64,000 nucleotides of DNA from a bacterium (lineage in GTDB: Bacteria; SZUA-79; Acidulodesulfobacterales; Acidulodesulfobacteraceae): positions 1 to 64,000 of the forward strand of contig JAJZBN010000008.1 of assembly GCA_021798875.1 (NCBI GenBank). Direction: 5' to 3'. A program made the translations under genes and the position numbers. Position 1 is the first letter of the stretch, and every line of letters starts with the position of its first letter. Positions 1,691 to 18,203 of this stretch are shown here, in pieces. The notes below the pieces were generated by a model that saw only the letters and a program-made list of their open reading frames with translations, searched no databases and was not told the DNA's origin.

Positions 1691-2275
1691 TTATGGTTGA
1701 AGAGTCTTCCACACAGCTTCAAATATTTCTTCTTTATATATATCTAAATCCTTTTTTATGACGTTATCCCATTTAATTTGAATAAGTCTTACCGGTATTC
1801 CGGTAAGACATACGGTAGCAACATAACTGTCCATTTTTTTAATATTTCCTTTTTGCATTTCATTTTTTAAAAAAGTCCTTAGCATTTCAAAAGGACCGGA
1901 CGAACAGATGGGCTTTCCGTCCTTTATAATTTCTTTATGTTTAATGTTTAAAGCGAATTGAAGCGTTATTTTATCTTCCTCTGCAATCCTGATAAGATTG
2001 AATACCAATTCTTTAATTTTATATCTTGTTTCTTTCTTTGATTGTAAAGTTTCTTCAAATAAATTATTTAAAAACAAAATCGTATCATTGAATAGCTTAA
2101 CGGCTATTTCTTCTTTGCTGCTGAAATGATGATAAATAGCTCCAGTGCTGATGCCGCATTCTGCCGCTATATCCCTCAAAGACGTATTATGGTAACCTTT
2201 TATAACAAAAAGTTCCATTGATTTTTTAAAAATTAGTTTCTGGGTTAAAAGCGATCTTTCATCATTAATTTTCAT
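1691..2275 (-). CDS. TetR/AcrR-family transcriptional repressor
   Basis: This is a 194-residue regulator counted from the ATG at 2275; an in-frame TTG two codons earlier (2281) is less likely. The N-terminal helix-turn-helix is typical: TSLRDIAAECGISTGAIYHH followed by FSSKEEIAVKLF. The C-terminal ligand domain is divergent and gives no ligand clue. An operator lies just upstream of its own start (2291-2306), and a near-identical one lies before the co-directional DsrE-like gene, so autoregulation and control of that gene are likely. The inducer is unknown. A thiol, sulfur or metal stress signal is plausible from context only. Confidence 0.88.
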   Translation of the reverse strand: MKINDERSLLTQKLIFKKSMELFVIKGYHNTSLRDIAAECGISTGAIYHHFSSKEEIAVKLFNDTILFLNNLFEETLQSKKETRYKIKELVFNLIRIAEEDKITLQFALNIKHKEIIKDGKPICSSGPFEMLRTFLKNEMQKGNIKKMDSYVATVCLTGIPVRLIQIKWDNVIKKDLDIYKEEIFEAVWKTLQP

Positions 2276-2290
2276 AGTCAAATAAAAATA

Positions 2291-2553: not shown

Positions 2554-3956
2554 ATGAGTAACAAAGAAAAAAAAATTTCGCTGGTTTTTTTTAGTCTATT
2601 GCCTTTTATCCTAACTATATTATTTCTTACTTACCCTAACGTGTCTTTAGCTTCCAAGAACTTAAAAAAAAACTTCATCACTCAATAATTAGAGATAAAA
2701 AAAATTTCAGCTCAGGTTTAAAACGCTCAAATAAAGTTTTGATTAATAAAAACCATAGTAAAAAACTGAAAAACATTTTATCATTGAAGCGGTTAATCAA
2801 AAATTCATTGAAAAATGATAATCTAAGGTCTTTAGAAATGAAAGCCGCAGCTTCTAAGGAAAATATTAAAATCGAAAAAAGTCTGCCTAATCCCAAAATA
2901 GCATTTGGTTATAACGATTCCGACGGTTTTAATAATTTTATGATAGGAAACAAAGAATACCAAGGAACTAAAGTTAGATTTACTTTTACTCAACTAATAC
3001 CTTTTCCGACCAAATTATTTTTAAGAAGCAAAATTGCAAAAAATTATTACTTTTATGATAAGGAAATTACCGAATCTGCAAGAGTTTCTACTGTTGCCGA
3101 CGTAAAAAACTATTATTACAGGCTTGCGCAGATAGAAAACGACATTGCTATTATAAAAAGCGATAATTCGCTGTTAAAGCTATTAGAAAAAAATACGGAT
3201 AATGGTTATGCCGTGGGAAAAACTAAAGAAACCGACGTAATTAGGATCGAACTTAAGATGATAGCGCTTAAAAACCAATTAACTGAATTGAAAAAAAATA
3301 AACTTGAGGTATTATACGAACTATCGAGATTTTCGGGATTGAAGCTTAATAAGTTGAAAGGAAAAGCCGTTATGCCGGATATAACAAAATTAAAACCTAA
3401 AAAATTAAAAAATATTATTTTGGATGCTTTTAAAAATAATCCCTTACTTAAAGCTATTAATTTTTTATTTAAAAATTCTAAGGATGAAAAAAAATTAGCC
3501 GATCAAGGATTATATCCAAATATTATTTTTCATGTTAAATACGGTTATAGATACGATATACAACCTGCTTTAGGAGGCTCGATAGGTCTTCAAATTCCCT
3601 TATATTTTAGTCAGAGGCAGTTTCCTGAAATAGATAAAGCAAAAAAAAATATGATTTCTACAATGTTTGCAAGAAGTTGGGAATATAGCGGAGTATCAAG
3701 AAAAATTTCGGCATATTTAACAAAAATTAAAAAATATTACAAACTTTATGAAACCGAAAAAAAGATTTACCTTCCTGAATCATCCTTTCTTTTAAAATTG
3801 TATATAAACAGATATATATTCGGAAAAACCTCCGCTTTTGAACTTCTTAACTCGTTTAAAAAAATGGTAAAAGCTGAATTGTTATCCAATAGCTATAAGT
3901 TAAATTTCTTAATAAGCAAAGACGATTTAAAGGCATCACTGGGGAAAATAAATTAA
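2554..3956 (+). CDS. TolC-family outer-membrane efflux protein, frameshifted at an A9 run
   Basis: The 5' frame (ATG 2554) encodes a signal peptide (MSNKEKKISLVFFS, hydrophobic core, cleavage region NVSLAS) and stops at 2686-2688. The main body lies in the frame one base back. That frame is open from 2640 but has no start codon before a TTG at 2739. The two frames meet at nine consecutive A (2664-2672). One extra A in the message, or a -1 ribosomal slip, would give one protein of about 467 residues, close to the 472 of the other TolC homologue in the window. The body has the paired helix-barrel repeats of this family. Such proteins form the outer-membrane exit duct of tripartite pumps. The adaptor gene follows 18 bp later. 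Confidence 0.75.
2664..2672 (+). promoter_or_regulatory. A9 slippage/frameshift site
   Basis: This is a run of nine A at the exact overlap between the signal-peptide frame and the efflux-protein frame. It could be a transcriptional slippage site, a phase-variable tract, a real inactivating indel, or a consensus error in the assembly. Confidence 0.6.
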
Positions 3957-3974
3957 AAGAATGAAATACATAAT

Positions 3975-5189
3975 ATGTTTAAAATAAAAAAAATTTTTAA
4001 CGGCGTTAAAACGACGATTGCTAAAAATAAATTAATTATTTCCGGGGTTTTAGTAGTAATAATTATAATGCTTTTTATTGCTTATAGATTTTTTATAATG
4101 CCGCTTGTTTACTATAATAAAAAATTCAACATTTATAATTATAGCATCGGTATTGGTAAAAGTAGTAAAATTAGCACATTAGAACTTAATAATATAAAAA
4201 AAATAAAGCCGTATTTTAGAACCGTTAAAATTATAAAAGTGTCACCGACAATACGGGCAAACGGCAGAACCACCTTTGCATCTCCTCTTGTAAGAATTGT
4301 TTCATTAAAATTTGGCGGCTACATATCTAAAATATATGCCGACAAAGATGGAATTAAAGTTCATAGGAACATGCCTCTGTTTTTGCTTTACAGCCCGTCT
4401 TTAATAGATGCAGAAAACGATTATATTCTTGCTTATAAAAACTACCTAAGGCTAAAAAATACTTCTTTTAAGTCGCAGGCAGAAACAATTTACTTATCCG
4501 CCGAAAAAAAACTTTTATTCTGGGGGATAAATAGATATCAGATTAGAAGAATTGAAAAAGAAAATAAAATTATAAAACAAATTCCTATATATTCGCCGAT
4601 AAACGGAATTGTAGTTAAAAAATTCATTGTTGACGGCGGTTACGTTAAGCCAAGCGCTAGACTTTACGAGTTAGCCGATATATCAAAATTATGGATGAAA
4701 ATATTTGTAAACGTTAGAGATTTAAAATTTATTCGTATTGGAAAGAGTGTTTCATTAAAATTTGCTTATTATAGAAATATGATTTTTCACGGCATAATCT
4801 CATATATTTATCCATATACTTTTAAAAAAGGAAAATTTATCAAGGTTAGAATATCTATAGATAACAGCAAGGATATCTTGAAAATTAATTCATACGGAAA
4901 TGTATATATAAAAATGCCATACAGCAAACGTTTGGCGGTTCCGGTATCTGCGGTAGCCCATATCTACCGTAAAGATGTTGTTCTTATTTATAATAAAAGT
5001 AAAAATCTTTTTCAGGCTAAAAGTATTATTGTCGGAACAAGATACGGAGGCTATTATTCCGTTATAGAGGGGTTAAAACCTAAGGAAACGGTTGTTAATC
5101 TAAACAATTTAAAAAAAGTAAGTGTAAACACAGCTGAAAAAATTTATCATTATCTTATTTTATCTTCCGTTAAAATAAAACCTTTATAA
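3975..5189 (+). CDS. Periplasmic adaptor (CusB/HlyD-like membrane fusion protein)
   Basis: The 404-residue protein has an N-terminal membrane anchor (about residues 20-40). A long hairpin region is bracketed by lipoyl-like halves (VSLKFGGYISKIYADKDG; IYSPINGIVVKKFIVDGG), followed by a beta-barrel domain. This layout and the YSPINGIV motif are typical of CusB-like adaptors, which join an inner-membrane RND pump to an outer-membrane duct. It lies 18 bp behind the TolC-like gene and probably shares its transcript. No RND gene follows; the next gene is on the other strand. The pair must borrow a pump encoded elsewhere, perhaps the one at 12.7-15.8 kb, or be a remnant. Confidence 0.82.
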   Translation: MFKIKKIFNGVKTTIAKNKLIISGVLVVIIIMLFIAYRFFIMPLVYYNKKFNIYNYSIGIGKSSKISTLELNNIKKIKPYFRTVKIIKVSPTIRANGRTTFASPLVRIVSLKFGGYISKIYADKDGIKVHRNMPLFLLYSPSLIDAENDYILAYKNYLRLKNTSFKSQAETIYLSAEKKLLFWGINRYQIRRIEKENKIIKQIPIYSPINGIVVKKFIVDGGYVKPSARLYELADISKLWMKIFVNVRDLKFIRIGKSVSLKFAYYRNMIFHGIISYIYPYTFKKGKFIKVRISIDNSKDILKINSYGNVYIKMPYSKRLAVPVSAVAHIYRKDVVLIYNKSKNLFQAKSIIVGTRYGGYYSVIEGLKPKETVVNLNNLKKVSVNTAEKIYHYLILSSVKIKPL

Positions 5190-5412: not shown

Positions 5413-5943
5413 TTATATAAAAGATAGTCCGTTAATTTTATTGTTTTTAATTACCGTTTTAATATATATAAATCTTCCGCTTTTTAATAACAATTTCCAA
5501 ACATAAAATTTGACGCCTGATAGCTTTAACGCAGTCATATATTGAATATTATAACCGTTTTTTAATTGCAATTTATTATTTAAAGAGTTTGAAACTTTAT
5601 CAAAATTAGTTTTAGTTATATTTTTTTTAAACGATGATGAAGTAGTTTTAATAAATTTAGTGTAATTTTTTTTTGCCAAAGCATTGACGGCTTTTGATAC
5701 CACTTTTTTTACTGTCTTGATTTTAGCTGGACTTATATGTAATTTCACCGGCTTGTTTGTGTTTGCATAATAGTTATTTGAAGGCATAGTTGGGCGGGCC
5801 GCAGGGGCATCATATTGATTTGAAGAATTGTTGCGAGAAGCAGGCACATTAGATTGCCCCTGTGAATTTAACATAGCATTGGCATTTACTCCGCCAAATA
5901 CAAAAAACGACATTAAAGCAACTAAATAAACAAATAGTTTCAT
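5413..5943 (-). CDS. Secreted protein of unknown function
   Basis: The 176-residue product starts with a clear signal peptide (MKLFVYLVALMSFFVFGG, cleavage near NANA). An Asn/Ser/Pro-rich linker (about residues 25-65) follows. The C-terminal domain is lysine-rich, mixed alpha/beta, and cysteine-free. A strong AGGAGG ribosome site stands at the usual distance from the ATG. It stands alone, between two efflux genes facing it and a long intergenic region. I do not recognise a family. The C-terminal pattern could be a small NTF2- or DUF4878-like fold, but that is a guess. Confidence 0.7.
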   Translation of the reverse strand: MKLFVYLVALMSFFVFGGVNANAMLNSQGQSNVPASRNNSSNQYDAPAARPTMPSNNYYANTNKPVKLHISPAKIKTVKKVVSKAVNALAKKNYTKFIKTTSSSFKKNITKTNFDKVSNSLNNKLQLKNGYNIQYMTALKLSGVKFYVWKLLLKSGRFIYIKTVIKNNKINGLSFI

Positions 5944-12706: not shown

Positions 12707-15700
12707 TTAATGAAATTTAATTCCGTCTCTACGGTTACTAAAAAGACCGGCGTATATTACGGGGGCAAGCCACAGGGACATAAAAACGGATATTAATAAT
12801 CCGCCCATAACCGCAACGGAAAGGGGTTTTAAAAGATCCGTGCCTCTTCCTATGCCGATAGCCAGCGGCAAAAAACCGAAAACGTCGGCAAGCATAGTCA
12901 TAAGTATCGGGCGGAGACGTTCTCTGGCGGCAAGAAAAACCGAAGAGGGGCTTGGGGACGAGTTAACTGCGCCGCTTATCTGCCTTGACCTTGCAAATAT
13001 AAGAATCGCATTATTCGTGGAAATAGCAAAAACTAAAAGAATTCCAAGAAATGCGGTGCTGTCGAGTTCGATACCGGTTATTAAAAGGGCGGCGAGTGCT
13101 CCTGCTCCAGACAGAGCAATAGCCGTCATCGAAGCTATTGCAGCGCGCTGGCTTGCGAACTGAAAACCGAAAAAGACGAATATAAGTATAAGCGCAAACG
13201 TAAGCATAACTGCCATCTGCTTAAAGCTTTTTACCTGCGAACGATAATATCCTCCGATAGAGGCGGTAACGGACGGCGGAAGATGCATAGAGTCGATAAC
13301 CTTGCGGGCTTTAGCCGCTCCGGCCGAAAGACCTTCGCCTTTTATCGGCTGAATGAAGATATAGGCATACGGAGCCATATTCTGGTGGGTTATAAAAGGA
13401 ACGGCTTTTTTGATGCGTATTTTAGAAATATAATCTAATCTCGTATGCGTTCCGTTTTTAAGCGTAAAAGGCCAGTTATTTAGTCCGGACACCGAGACAG
13501 ATTTCTTTTTAATAAATACGCGCACGGGAAGTACCTGTTCGCCATACAGCAAAAAGCCGGCTTTCTGTCCCCATAGGAGTCTTTTGACTTTATCCGCTAT
13601 TACGGGCGGAGATATGCCGTATGCAGCCGCATAATCCGTCGGCGTAAGAGTTATTTCCGGTCCTGCCGAAGGAGATTTAAAATTGACGTATTGGAAATTA
13701 CCGGTTTTTCTTAATTTATCCGCTAAAATTTTGCCGTATTTTCTGAGCGTATTAGAGCTTTTGCCGAAAAGCATGACTTCTAAAGGCGCATGGGAGCCAG
13801 ATAAAAACCCGAGACGGTTTACCATGAGTTGTTGAAAATTAAGGTCTATTAGGTCTGGATCTGCATTATGAAATTTATTATAAAGTTTTCTCATTATTTT
13901 TTCGGTAGTTTCTGTGCGGTTTCTTCTTAAAACTATCGTCAAATCGCCTTTGTTAGGCGTAGAATAGGGGTTGTCCAAACTCCTGCCTACTACCAATGAA
14001 ACCATTTTAACGTCAGGGTTTTTTTTAGCTATGCGCATAAGATATTTTCCGGTTCTTTCTGTGCCGGCAACGCTGCTTCCCACCGGAGTTCTGAACGGGA
14101 CGACAAAAATTCCCTCGTCCCATTTCGGCAGAAAAGCCGTCCGCAGGTAAAACAGTGAAAACGCAGCCGTAATTATTAAAACAAAAATTACAGGCAATGC
14201 AAGCCAAGGCGATTTCATGCCCTTAATCAGCATATATCCGTAAATTTTCCTAAGCCTGTTTTTTTTATAAATTTTACTTTTTTTCCCGCCGTTTTTTCTT
14301 TTTGTAAGAATTACGGTAAGTATCGGAGTAAGGGTTAAAGCGGTCAGCTGAGACGTTATGAGCGCTATAACTATCGAAAGAGCCATCTGCTTAAAAAGTA
14401 TGCCGAGAGTTCCATGTATAAAGATAAGGGGTATAAAAACAATAGAAGACGTAATTGTAGCAGCGGTCATAAGCGGAAGTATTTTGCCTACGCGCTCCAA
14501 TGCCGAGTCGCCGCCCGTTTCTTTCGCCAATCCTCCCTTCATCTTATGAAAGCCTCTTTCCACTATTACTATTGCATGGTCTATCATAGCTCCAATTGAC
14601 GCCGTTAATCCGCCGAGCGTCATAATATTGAGACCGAAACCTAAAGCATTAAGAATGATAACAGTCAAAGATACCGAGACGGGTATTACGGCAAGGGCTA
14701 TAAGAGCGCCGTCGAGCCGCTTTAAAAAAAGGAATACGACAAACAGCGCGATTAAACCGCCCATAATTAAGGCAATCCATACGTCTTTAAGATTGGAATG
14801 TATGAGCCTGCTTGTATTATAGACCGAGATTATTTTTAAGCCTTTCGGCAGGCGGTTGTTTAAAGATTTAATCCGCCTGCCGATGTTTCCGGCGACTTTA
14901 ACCGTATTTATATTTAGATCGGGCATAATATCGATAAGAAGGGCATGGCGGTATCCGCTTACCGCCGCTTCGCGGATTAATGGCGGAGAGATTATATTTA
15001 CTTTGCCTAAGGATTTTAAAGGCAGAAGAGTATGCTTTACCGGAATCATAAGATTTGACAGGTCTTTTATATCCGCCGGACGAGGAGTAGCCGCCACTAC
15101 GAACTGTTTATGATATTCATTCAGCACCCCCGAAAAAAAAGGCCCCTGATAAGACATCAGTATTTTAACTATATTTTCCGGACTTATATGATACTGGGCA
15201 AGACGGAGCGGATTTAAGTTTACGCCGATCTCCGGCCAGCCGCGTCCCGTTCCTTCTATCTGATAAATTCCTTTGACTGACAGTAAAGCGGGTCTTATCT
15301 TGTAAGCAAAAATCGACATCATATCTGAACTGCTATAATTTTTACGGTTAGAAACAAGGGCAAACTCTGCAAAAGGATATACGTTAGGCGACATCAGCCG
15401 GACGGTCATTTTGCTGCCCGGCGGCAGCGCCACCTGGCTTAAACGGGATTCAAGCATTAAATACGCTATGTGGGGTTTTACGTTAGATTGAAAATAAACG
15501 GTAATTTTAGATATACCGTTGCCGGTTTGCGAGCGGACAAGGCGGACGCCCTGTTCTCCTTCCGCCGCGGCTTCAAGAGGCTTGGTTGCCTGAACCAGCA
15601 TAAATTTTACGGGCAGTCTGCCGCTGTGTACTAAAACGGAAACTCTTGGAAAATTGACGTCGGGGAAAATGCTCTCCGGCATATTGCGGGTATAAAACCA

Positions 15701-15778
15701 ACCGACGCCTATAATCATTAAAGAAAGGAGAATTACCGAAAACTTATTTTTTAAAAGAAAATTAAGATATCTTTTCAA
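12707..15778 (-). CDS. RND-family efflux pump, inner-membrane permease
   Basis: The 1023-residue protein has the full RND layout: a first helix, a large periplasmic loop, helices 2-6, a duplicated second half, and a C-terminal helix set. In helix 4 the usual paired acids appear as IDHAIVIVE (Asp400, His401). In helix 10 the site of the usual lysine reads STNNAILIF (about 922-923). It groups by eye between the heavy-metal and drug/lipid branches, so the substrate is not decided. Its start overlaps the adaptor stop by 4 bp, forming an operon with tolC and the adaptor upstream. The pump would be driven by proton flow. Confidence 0.9.
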   Translation of the reverse strand: MKRYLNFLLKNKFSVILLSLMIIGVGWFYTRNMPESIFPDVNFPRVSVLVHSGRLPVKFMLVQATKPLEAAAEGEQGVRLVRSQTGNGISKITVYFQSNVKPHIAYLMLESRLSQVALPPGSKMTVRLMSPNVYPFAEFALVSNRKNYSSSDMMSIFAYKIRPALLSVKGIYQIEGTGRGWPEIGVNLNPLRLAQYHISPENIVKILMSYQGPFFSGVLNEYHKQFVVAATPRPADIKDLSNLMIPVKHTLLPLKSLGKVNIISPPLIREAAVSGYRHALLIDIMPDLNINTVKVAGNIGRRIKSLNNRLPKGLKIISVYNTSRLIHSNLKDVWIALIMGGLIALFVVFLFLKRLDGALIALAVIPVSVSLTVIILNALGFGLNIMTLGGLTASIGAMIDHAIVIVERGFHKMKGGLAKETGGDSALERVGKILPLMTAATITSSIVFIPLIFIHGTLGILFKQMALSIVIALITSQLTALTLTPILTVILTKRKNGGKKSKIYKKNRLRKIYGYMLIKGMKSPWLALPVIFVLIITAAFSLFYLRTAFLPKWDEGIFVVPFRTPVGSSVAGTERTGKYLMRIAKKNPDVKMVSLVVGRSLDNPYSTPNKGDLTIVLRRNRTETTEKIMRKLYNKFHNADPDLIDLNFQQLMVNRLGFLSGSHAPLEVMLFGKSSNTLRKYGKILADKLRKTGNFQYVNFKSPSAGPEITLTPTDYAAAYGISPPVIADKVKRLLWGQKAGFLLYGEQVLPVRVFIKKKSVSVSGLNNWPFTLKNGTHTRLDYISKIRIKKAVPFITHQNMAPYAYIFIQPIKGEGLSAGAAKARKVIDSMHLPPSVTASIGGYYRSQVKSFKQMAVMLTFALILIFVFFGFQFASQRAAIASMTAIALSGAGALAALLITGIELDSTAFLGILLVFAISTNNAILIFARSRQISGAVNSSPSPSSVFLAARERLRPILMTMLADVFGFLPLAIGIGRGTDLLKPLSVAVMGGLLISVFMSLWLAPVIYAGLFSNRRDGIKFH

Positions 15779-16788
15779 TGTTTTATCTCCACCGAGATGC
15801 CTGATTTAAGTCTTGTAACGGGATATATTATTACCGGTTCCCCGGGTTTAATTTGCCCTTTAACGTATGCTATGCCGTTTTTTTGCCTAACCACTTTCAC
15901 GCTGACCGCTTGCGCTTTTTTATTTACTACCGTGAATACCGCCGTTCCGCCATTATGTATAAAAACCGCTCTTTCGGGCAAAGAAAAGGCGGAGGCGGAA
16001 GATTCTTCAAATCGCAGTTTAACCCATTCGCCGGGAAATAATATAGAATTATTTTGCAGGCTTACATAAACCGGAATGAGTCCGTTATGAAACGCATTGC
16101 CGCCGATAGATATGATTTTGCCTGTTTCGCAGGTACGCCCTTTTTTTATTTTAACCGCCATATTTTTATAAAGATAAAAACTTCGGGAAGGCGTTACATA
16201 TGTTTTGACCCAGGGCAGGCCTTTTCCGTTTAGTACCGCTACGGGACTTCCAGCCGCGACGATAGCGCCGTTCGCCGCTATATAACGAACCGTTCCTTTT
16301 GAGCGCGAAACGATAAGACCTTCGCTGTTTATCGACTCTAAAGAACGAAGAGCATAGTACGCGTCGGACAGGCTTAAGGCAGCCGTCTCAACGTCTTTTT
16401 TTGCGGCTACGCCGTAATGAAATAAAAGCTTCTCCCTTTTAAACTTAATCTTTGCATACCTTACTTCGTCCTTTGCGGAAATTATCTTTGCGTATAAGCC
16501 CGGGCTTACGACTCTTGCAATAACGGTTCCGGCGGTTACTAATTTTGGAAAAGAAAAAGATTCTATCAGTCTTCCCGTAAAAGGAGCCGTAAAAACTTGT
16601 CTGCCGTTACTGATAACCTTTCCGATAGAAAAAATACTTTTTGCCGTGTAAGTTTTTTTAGCATAGGCGACTTTTACCGGCATTGCGGAACCGGCAAAGG
16701 CAAAGGGCATGCAGATACCGCAAAGGACGAACGAGATAAAAATTAAAATTGAAATCAAAATTACATTTTTCATAGTTTTCGGTCTCAT
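15775..16788 (-). CDS. RND periplasmic adaptor (membrane fusion protein)
   Basis: The 337-residue protein has a signal peptide (NVILISILIFISFVLCG, cleavage near AFAGS). A lipoyl-like half (FTAPFTGRLIESFSFPKLV), a short helical hairpin, the second half (SRSKGTVRYIAANGAIVAAG), a beta-barrel and a membrane-proximal domain follow. It links the RND permease to the TolC channel. It overlaps the tolC stop upstream and the permease start downstream by 4 bp each, so the three are translationally coupled. Confidence 0.87.
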   Translation of the reverse strand: MRPKTMKNVILISILIFISFVLCGICMPFAFAGSAMPVKVAYAKKTYTAKSIFSIGKVISNGRQVFTAPFTGRLIESFSFPKLVTAGTVIARVVSPGLYAKIISAKDEVRYAKIKFKREKLLFHYGVAAKKDVETAALSLSDAYYALRSLESINSEGLIVSRSKGTVRYIAANGAIVAAGSPVAVLNGKGLPWVKTYVTPSRSFYLYKNMAVKIKKGRTCETGKIISIGGNAFHNGLIPVYVSLQNNSILFPGEWVKLRFEESSASAFSLPERAVFIHNGGTAVFTVVNKKAQAVSVKVVRQKNGIAYVKGQIKPGEPVIIYPVTRLKSGISVEIKH

Positions 16789-18203
16789 AGTTTTCCGTCT
16801 CCGGAGGGGATTATTCCCATATCTATATCTAATTGAGAAACTGCCAAATAAAACCCGTTTACGGCTTCAGCAAGCTCTATGCGCGATTTTATCCAATTAT
16901 TCTGGGCTTCCTGCAATTCAAGGGCATTAAAAGCCCCTGCCAAATAAGCTTCTTTAGCCATCTTAAAAACTTCGCCGGATTTTTTGACTAAAACTTTTGC
17001 TCCGTAAATTTTCTTTTTTGAGGCAGACGCTCTGCCGTAATCTATCGTGAGCCTTTTTTTTACGGACAGTTTAACTGCGGATGCGGCGGATTTAAGCGCT
17101 ATAAGCCTTTCATTCGCCGCATCTATATAACCTTTATGAAGCCCGAAATTATAAATAGGAATGTTCAGCATGACGAAAAACTGCCACCCGAGATTAGGAG
17201 CGGCGAAAGAATTTACGGTGTCTTCTCCGTATGCGGCGCCGCCCTGAATGTTCGGGAGCCTTCCGGCTTTACTTATTGAAACGGATGATTTGGCGGATTT
17301 AATTTCCGCATCTGCTATTTTAATCAGCGGCTGTTTTTTTATAGCTTTGGAAATGAGGCTATTTAAAGGAGGCATCTTATAATTGAAACCGGCACTGTTC
17401 GGAGCGGGTATGCTCAAAGAAAGTTTTGCATGACGGACGCTGCCGTAAAATATCTCCATTAAGAACATCCGTTCAAACGATTTTACTTTTGATTTTAAAA
17501 TTTTTAAGTTAGTTTGTATGCCGGCAGTCATAAGCTCCGTTTGAACGACGTCGAAACGCGAAAGACTGCCGGCTTTATATCCTATTTTTGCGGCGGTTAA
17601 GATTTTTTTCGCGCCGCTTAGCGCCTTTCGCTCTATTTTTATTTCGTCTTTTAGCAGAATAAGTCCGTAAAAATATTGCGTTATACGGGCGGCCGTGAAA
17701 AGGCGCGCCAGACTAAGCCTGTATTCCGCAATCTTAAGATTATCTCCCGCAAGCGAAATTTCGCCGTATATTTTCGGGTCGAATATCGGAACGCTTAAAC
17801 TTATCTGACTTATTAATTCTCTCATTCCGTTGGCGGAAGCAAATACCGGATAGCCGTTTTTGGTCCTTGACCAGATACCCCCGGCGTTTACAGATATGTC
17901 AGGGAACAAAGCTGCGTCATAGGCTTTTTTTAAATCCATTTTTTCTGATATTATATGCTCGGCTTCCAAAATATTCCCCTGATTCGACAAAGCTCTTTTA
18001 ATAGCCGACGCTAAAGATATTTTTATGGTTCTATTCCTTGCCGAAGACGGAATTTTACCCGTTTTGCTTATTTTGAAATAGATGCCGGAGTTATGCGGAT
18101 TTGATGGTGTCTCGGCATATGCCGTTTTAAATGAATAAGCCGCATTTATGAAAAATAAAAATAAAAAAACCGTTCTTACCACCGTCGAATTTTTTTTTTG
18201 CAT
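16785..18203 (-). CDS. TolC-family outer-membrane channel
   Basis: The 472-residue protein starts with a signal peptide (VVRTVFLFLFFINAAYS, cleavage after AYA). Two outer-membrane-efflux repeats of long helices and short barrel strands follow (LASAIKRALSNQGNILEAEH; KPLIKIADAEIKSAKSS-like second repeat). It is the first gene of the efflux operon and forms the exit duct for the RND pump. A GGTAGG ribosome site precedes the ATG. The 118-bp gap to the divergent nuclease gene should hold both promoters. Confidence 0.88.
   Translation of the reverse strand: MQKKNSTVVRTVFLFLFFINAAYSFKTAYAETPSNPHNSGIYFKISKTGKIPSSARNRTIKISLASAIKRALSNQGNILEAEHIISEKMDLKKAYDAALFPDISVNAGGIWSRTKNGYPVFASANGMRELISQISLSVPIFDPKIYGEISLAGDNLKIAEYRLSLARLFTAARITQYFYGLILLKDEIKIERKALSGAKKILTAAKIGYKAGSLSRFDVVQTELMTAGIQTNLKILKSKVKSFERMFLMEIFYGSVRHAKLSLSIPAPNSAGFNYKMPPLNSLISKAIKKQPLIKIADAEIKSAKSSVSISKAGRLPNIQGGAAYGEDTVNSFAAPNLGWQFFVMLNIPIYNFGLHKGYIDAANERLIALKSAASAVKLSVKKRLTIDYGRASASKKKIYGAKVLVKKSGEVFKMAKEAYLAGAFNALELQEAQNNWIKSRIELAEAVNGFYLAVSQLDIDMGIIPSGDGKL

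Follow-up and report, generated by a model that had tools for sequence, protein, structure and literature searches.

Transcriptional slippage on homopolymeric runs has direct precedents in bacteria, namely Thermus dnaX with a run of nine A (50%), Citrobacter tssM1 with A11 (20–25%) and Shigella mxiE (PMC1088944, PMC4256274). Against these stand the transcriptomes of Escherichia coli and Buchnera, in which insertions rise with run length and rescue of a reading frame was never found (PMC5574713). In many bacteria, depletion from genes marks the run length that is prone to slippage (Baranov et al., PMC1088944). Here, we describe a gene for an outer-membrane efflux channel that is split at a run of nine A residues (A9) in the window, a stretch of 64 000 nucleotides from the 2.5 Mb metagenome-assembled genome (G000) of an uncultured acidophilic bacterium. 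Rather than being dead or mis-assembled, the split gene probably still works, with slippage at A9 restoring its frame.

The signal-peptide frame (2554–2688, forward strand) opens with ATG at 2554 and closes with TAA at 2686–2688, five codons past a run of exactly nine A residues at 2664–2672. Its product, MSNKEKKISLVFFSLLPFILTILFLTYPNVSLASKNLKKNFITQ*, contains an n-region, a hydrophobic core and an SLA-like cleavage site followed by the residues KNLKK. At the A-run it parts from the frame of the mature TolC/OEP protein (2640–3956, forward strand), which is open from 2640 onwards, its nearest upstream stop being the TAA at 2637, and which has neither a start nor a signal peptide of its own. Two slippery heptamers, A_AAA_AAA (2664–2670) and A_AAA_AAC (2667–2673), are in phase at this junction. 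The earliest start-like codons of the OEP frame are TTG at 2739, 2784 and 2808 and ATG at 2838, located at +75, +120, +144 and +174 from the tract, and a signal peptide follows from none of them. A separate start for the channel frame is ruled out, as there is no start ahead of the fold that is common to all alleles and no export signal.

Changing from one frame to the other requires one extra A, or a −1 slip of the ribosome, inside the segment in which the two frames can be joined. In G000 this segment extends only from −24 to +22 nt of the tract and in G019/G022 only from −6 to +19. Four of the six split alleles have a joining segment of less than 50 nt, with A9 as the sole long homopolymer inside it. 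The preliminary description had placed the meeting point of the two frames at 2664–2672, had found no ATG or GTG start for the downstream frame before TTG 2739 and had predicted a protein of about 467 residues upon addition of one A. The sequence confirms the first two points, the first ATG lying at 2838 with no GTG upstream of it, and a natural intact allele of 467 amino acids is present in G014 (L036:8307–9710). The proposed closeness to the second TolC homologue (16785–18203) holds for length (472 amino acids) but not for sequence, with an identity of only ∼25%; the nearest paralogue of the channel is found on another contig and is 36% identical.

The tract was then compared among 30 genomes of the order, in which orthologues of the channel at an identity of at least 79% occur at seven loci. 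A9 and the identical frame break are present in six of these, four from one genus (G000, G002, G005 and G011) and two from another (G019 and G022). The seventh allele, that of G014, has A10 and a single unbroken frame, and lengths of nine and ten are the only ones seen. The comparison of relatives that had been proposed at the outset thus finds A9 and the split recurring across two genera, and the objection that relatives might be intact without a tract does not apply, since they retain it. Between genera the channel is 79–80% identical, PNPase 83–84% and UbiB 72%, and the intermediate value of the channel is compatible with vertical descent.

The contigs of G005 (A9) and G014 (A10) are 99% identical across 11 kb, yet the PNPase of G005 is only 85% identical to that of the window, compared with 97% for G014. 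The G005 contig (C73, L034) is therefore either mis-binned or recently transferred, the remainder of G005 belonging to a more distant species. Whichever of the two applies, the pair shows both tract lengths, A9 and A10, within sequences that are almost the same. G007 is doubtful as an intact-frame orthologue. Its OEP is 64% identical though its PNPase reaches 89%, and it is probably a paralogue or a transferred copy. In this divergent OEP (L039:200–1546, G007:C103) an A9 directly follows the signal peptide in frame, and slippage there would truncate the protein.

Selection was assessed as dN/dS by the Nei–Gojobori method, separately for the channel half and the signal-peptide half. For the channel half the ratio is 0.04–0.12 wherever dS could be measured, also for pairs in which both members carry A9 (G000–G011, 0.12; G002–G005, 0.04; G019–G022, 0.11; G000–G019, 0.12 at a dS of 0.98); between genera dS is 0.93–1.27. 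As judged from these ratios, the mature channel half is under strong purifying selection. The signal-peptide half comprises 36 codons without indels in the seven orthologues, and its dN/dS is 0.23–0.52 between genera; within a genus the values are noisy, reaching up to ∼1 on few sites. The OEP is better conserved than the intact adaptor encoded beside it, at 93–94% versus 85–87% identity within a genus and 79–80% versus 70% between genera. No extra stops are found in any of the six A9 alleles, and both halves are open.

Within the two-gene unit, the tract at 2664 is the sole A/T run of at least nine that is kept in all seven orthologues. Two further A9 runs, at 2567–2575 (inside the channel gene and in frame) and at 3641, are not conserved. 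The adaptor gene contains an A8 (4504–4511) that is in frame and kept in 7/7 orthologues. Purity of AAA codons was considered as a sign of selection and is not unusual, as 28 of 46 Lys columns are all-AAA in the seven orthologues. The argument from conservation is that neither the length nor the frame has altered across a divergence at which a run of nine, given the general instability of homopolymers, should have changed many times.

The OEP frame matches PF02321 with E = 1.3 × 10−19 (71.2 bits, curated cut-off 22), and its score for the TolC subfamily TIGR01844 is below threshold (32.5 bits against a cut-off of 225). A sequence search of solved structures gave no match for the channel, and fold comparison was used. 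The mature half as modelled by AlphaFold2 (pLDDT 81) shows a full TolC fold with two helix–strand–strand–helix repeats, and Foldseek matches it to TolC, OprM and CusC with E values of 10−17 to 10−14 (TolC, PDB entry 1ek9, E = 8.6 × 10−16; CusC, PDB entry 3pik, E = 8.7 × 10−15). The tract lies at the start of a linker that connects the signal peptide to the channel fold (2664–2768, forward strand), which is variable in the orthologue alignment and predicted to be disordered, with pLDDT below 50 over residues 1–35 of the mature frame. On this model, the linker should tolerate the extra Lys encoded by the tract.

The channel gene is followed in 7/7 orthologous loci by the gene for a periplasmic adaptor, an intact operon partner at 3975–5189 (forward strand) of the CusB/CzcB-type membrane fusion protein family (PF16576, E = 3.3 × 10−48; under the cut-off for TIGR00999). 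None of the seven loci has a gene for an inner-membrane pump next to the pair. Two further outer-membrane/adaptor/RND pump operons are located at 12707–18203 (reverse strand) and on another contig (G000:C25, L040), besides the pump-less pair at 2554–5189. A divergent TetR-family regulator is encoded at 1691–2281 (reverse strand; PF00440, E = 3.2 × 10−17), and a homologue of 92% identity occurs within the G011 stretch, but away from the pair. On the other side, the pair adjoins a gene for a secreted-looking protein of 176 amino acids (5413–5943, reverse strand) without a match in Pfam or NCBIfam. Such proteins of 176–182 amino acids recur near the OEP–adaptor pair in the genera g1 and g2 (L041, L043, L044 and L046) and are 57–62% identical between them. 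Further upstream, at 401–899, a pair of ORFs that do not share a frame (86 and 73 amino acids) look like the remnant of a broken transposase or integrase. A promoter scan gave no surplus over shuffled sequences, and a search of viral contigs for relatives found none.

The behaviour of A-runs was surveyed in 845 kb of G000 (34% of the genome), with split genes called by an open-frame test; a codon-usage frame scorer misses the signal peptide of 36 codons. Open frames in these 845 kb contain about 50 coding-strand A9/A10 tracts, and only that at 2664–2672 splits a gene. Relative to synonymous shuffling, the observed-to-expected ratio of coding A-runs is 1.36 for A8, 0.67 for A9 and 0.23 for A10, and runs of A11 or longer are absent from coding sequence where 13 are expected. 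Runs up to A8 are in excess, and nine is the shortest depleted length, which agrees with the signature of Baranov et al. for proneness to slippage (PMC1088944). The depletion of runs of nine and more from genes can also stem from replication slippage. MutS (PF00488) and MutL (PF01119) are absent from 30/30 genomes of the order, with 11 of 14 controls positive, and the order is apparently free of mismatch repair as far as these genomes tell. Homopolymers should therefore be unstable and replication slippage frequent. No tRNA-Lys was seen in the stretches scanned.

That the gene is alive is well supported by an A9 split present in two genera, with both halves open and a dN/dS of about 0.1 for the channel: the split is kept although selection on the protein is strong. 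As in genes that depend on slippage, a run of at least nine A stands at the junction, a slip restores the frame, and the split is conserved together with purifying selection. It is moderately likely that part of the mRNA is brought into frame by RNA polymerase slipping on A9. On DNA, A9 breaks the channel gene where the Sec signal peptide gives way to the mature TolC-type channel. While transcribing, RNA polymerase would slip on the run and add one A to part of the transcripts. Only these A10 mRNAs would encode the preprotein of 467 residues (signal peptide, KKK linker and channel), and A9 transcripts would give a signal-peptide stub of 44 residues. Slippage by RNA polymerase would need nothing beyond A9 and, by analogy, has the precedents given above; the allele of G014, which is already in frame, speaks against it. 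That the slip takes place in RNA, and not in DNA or during translation, is our inference, as are its efficiency and any regulatory use. The preliminary description had favoured a slippage or phase-variable control point over a dead gene. A living slippage or phase-variable site agrees with the data, whereas the word 'control' is unsupported.

Replication slippage could instead toggle the DNA from A9 (off) to A10 (on) and back, with the gene being kept as some cells are always on. Switches of this kind classically consist of a repeat beside the signal peptide of an outer-membrane protein, unstable homopolymers are expected where MutS and MutL are missing in all 30 genomes, and the contigs of G005 and G014 indicate a very recent change of length. 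We nevertheless regard phase variation as rather unlikely, as six of the seven alleles are in the 'off' state and only two lengths are seen, yet the dN/dS of the channel is about 0.1. In addition, G000 has about 50 further coding A9/A10 tracts that stay in frame, and A9 is under the cut-off of 11 for phase-variable T tracts in Neisseria (PMC5953494). A combination of both processes, in which A9 cells obtain a low constitutive dose of channel through transcriptional slippage, A10 cells the full dose, and the population passes between these two levels by replication slippage that goes uncorrected, is a tentative idea of similarly low probability.

Programmed −1 ribosomal frameshifting on A_AAA_AAA or A_AAA_AAC would produce the same protein from a uniform A9 mRNA. 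Both heptamers are phased with the signal-peptide frame and conserved in 6/6 A9 alleles, and the zero-frame stop follows a few codons past the tract, but the usual stimulators are not seen: there is no stable structure in the 80 nt 3′ of the tract (−4.8 kcal mol−1, z = 0.33), the consensus structure (−1.0 kcal mol−1) is without compensatory pairs or covariation, and no Shine–Dalgarno-like sequence lies close 5′ of the tract. Since these heptamers are moreover far less shifty in E. coli than A_AAA_AAG (PMC5009743), we consider this mechanism improbable. That a genuine frameshift, inherited or repeated, has killed the gene and left a young pseudogene is very unlikely: standard decoding of the A9 alleles cannot yield an exported channel, but the split is common to two genera at a synonymous divergence of ∼1 with dN/dS of ∼0.1, no further stops have accumulated in 6/6 A9 alleles and the channel has diverged less than the adaptor of its operon. 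An assembly or base-calling error that hides a true A10 everywhere, which the A10 of G014 might suggest and which had been anticipated as an objection, can practically be dismissed because A9 recurs across several projects and samples, in assemblies that are SPAdes-style by their record titles and have 9× to 477× coverage, and because the G000 assembly holds its other coding A9/A10 tracts in frame.

In most of these genomes, standard annotation would label the channel gene as a pseudogene. The locus resembles Shigella mxiE, Citrobacter rodentium tssM1 and the slippage-dependent IS transposases, where an A/T run of at least nine joins two frames and, if the analogy holds, slippage would make the long functional product. 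It differs from them in that the junction coincides with the boundary of Sec signal peptide and mature channel, the unslipped product being a 44-residue stub. With TolC and CusC, and the CusB/CzcB-type adaptor, it shares the OEP domain, the full TolC fold and the adjoining adaptor gene, but identity to TolC is ∼14% and no inner-membrane pump gene is found beside the pair. The homopolymer near the signal peptide recalls the phase-variable outer-membrane proteins of Neisseria and Helicobacter, here in an order without MutS and MutL, which makes the setting more informative; unlike at those loci, the tract is short (A9/A10), nearly constant across species and mostly in the nominal off state. As in the pseudo-pseudogenes of Blochmannia and Buchnera (PMC3017870 and work cited there), a poly-A frameshift is kept between species without decay. 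The host here is not a reduced endosymbiont but an apparently free-living organism with a 2.5 Mb metagenome-assembled genome, and instead of many genes a single one is affected among about 50 coding A9/A10 tracts. If our reading is correct, slippage has been required for a membrane channel of an environmental organism with a non-reduced genome from a time before the two genera diverged, and the question of whether frameshifts conserved at homopolymers are tolerated noise or selected dose control becomes testable beyond endosymbionts and pathogens, with the natural A9 and A10 alleles as a pair.
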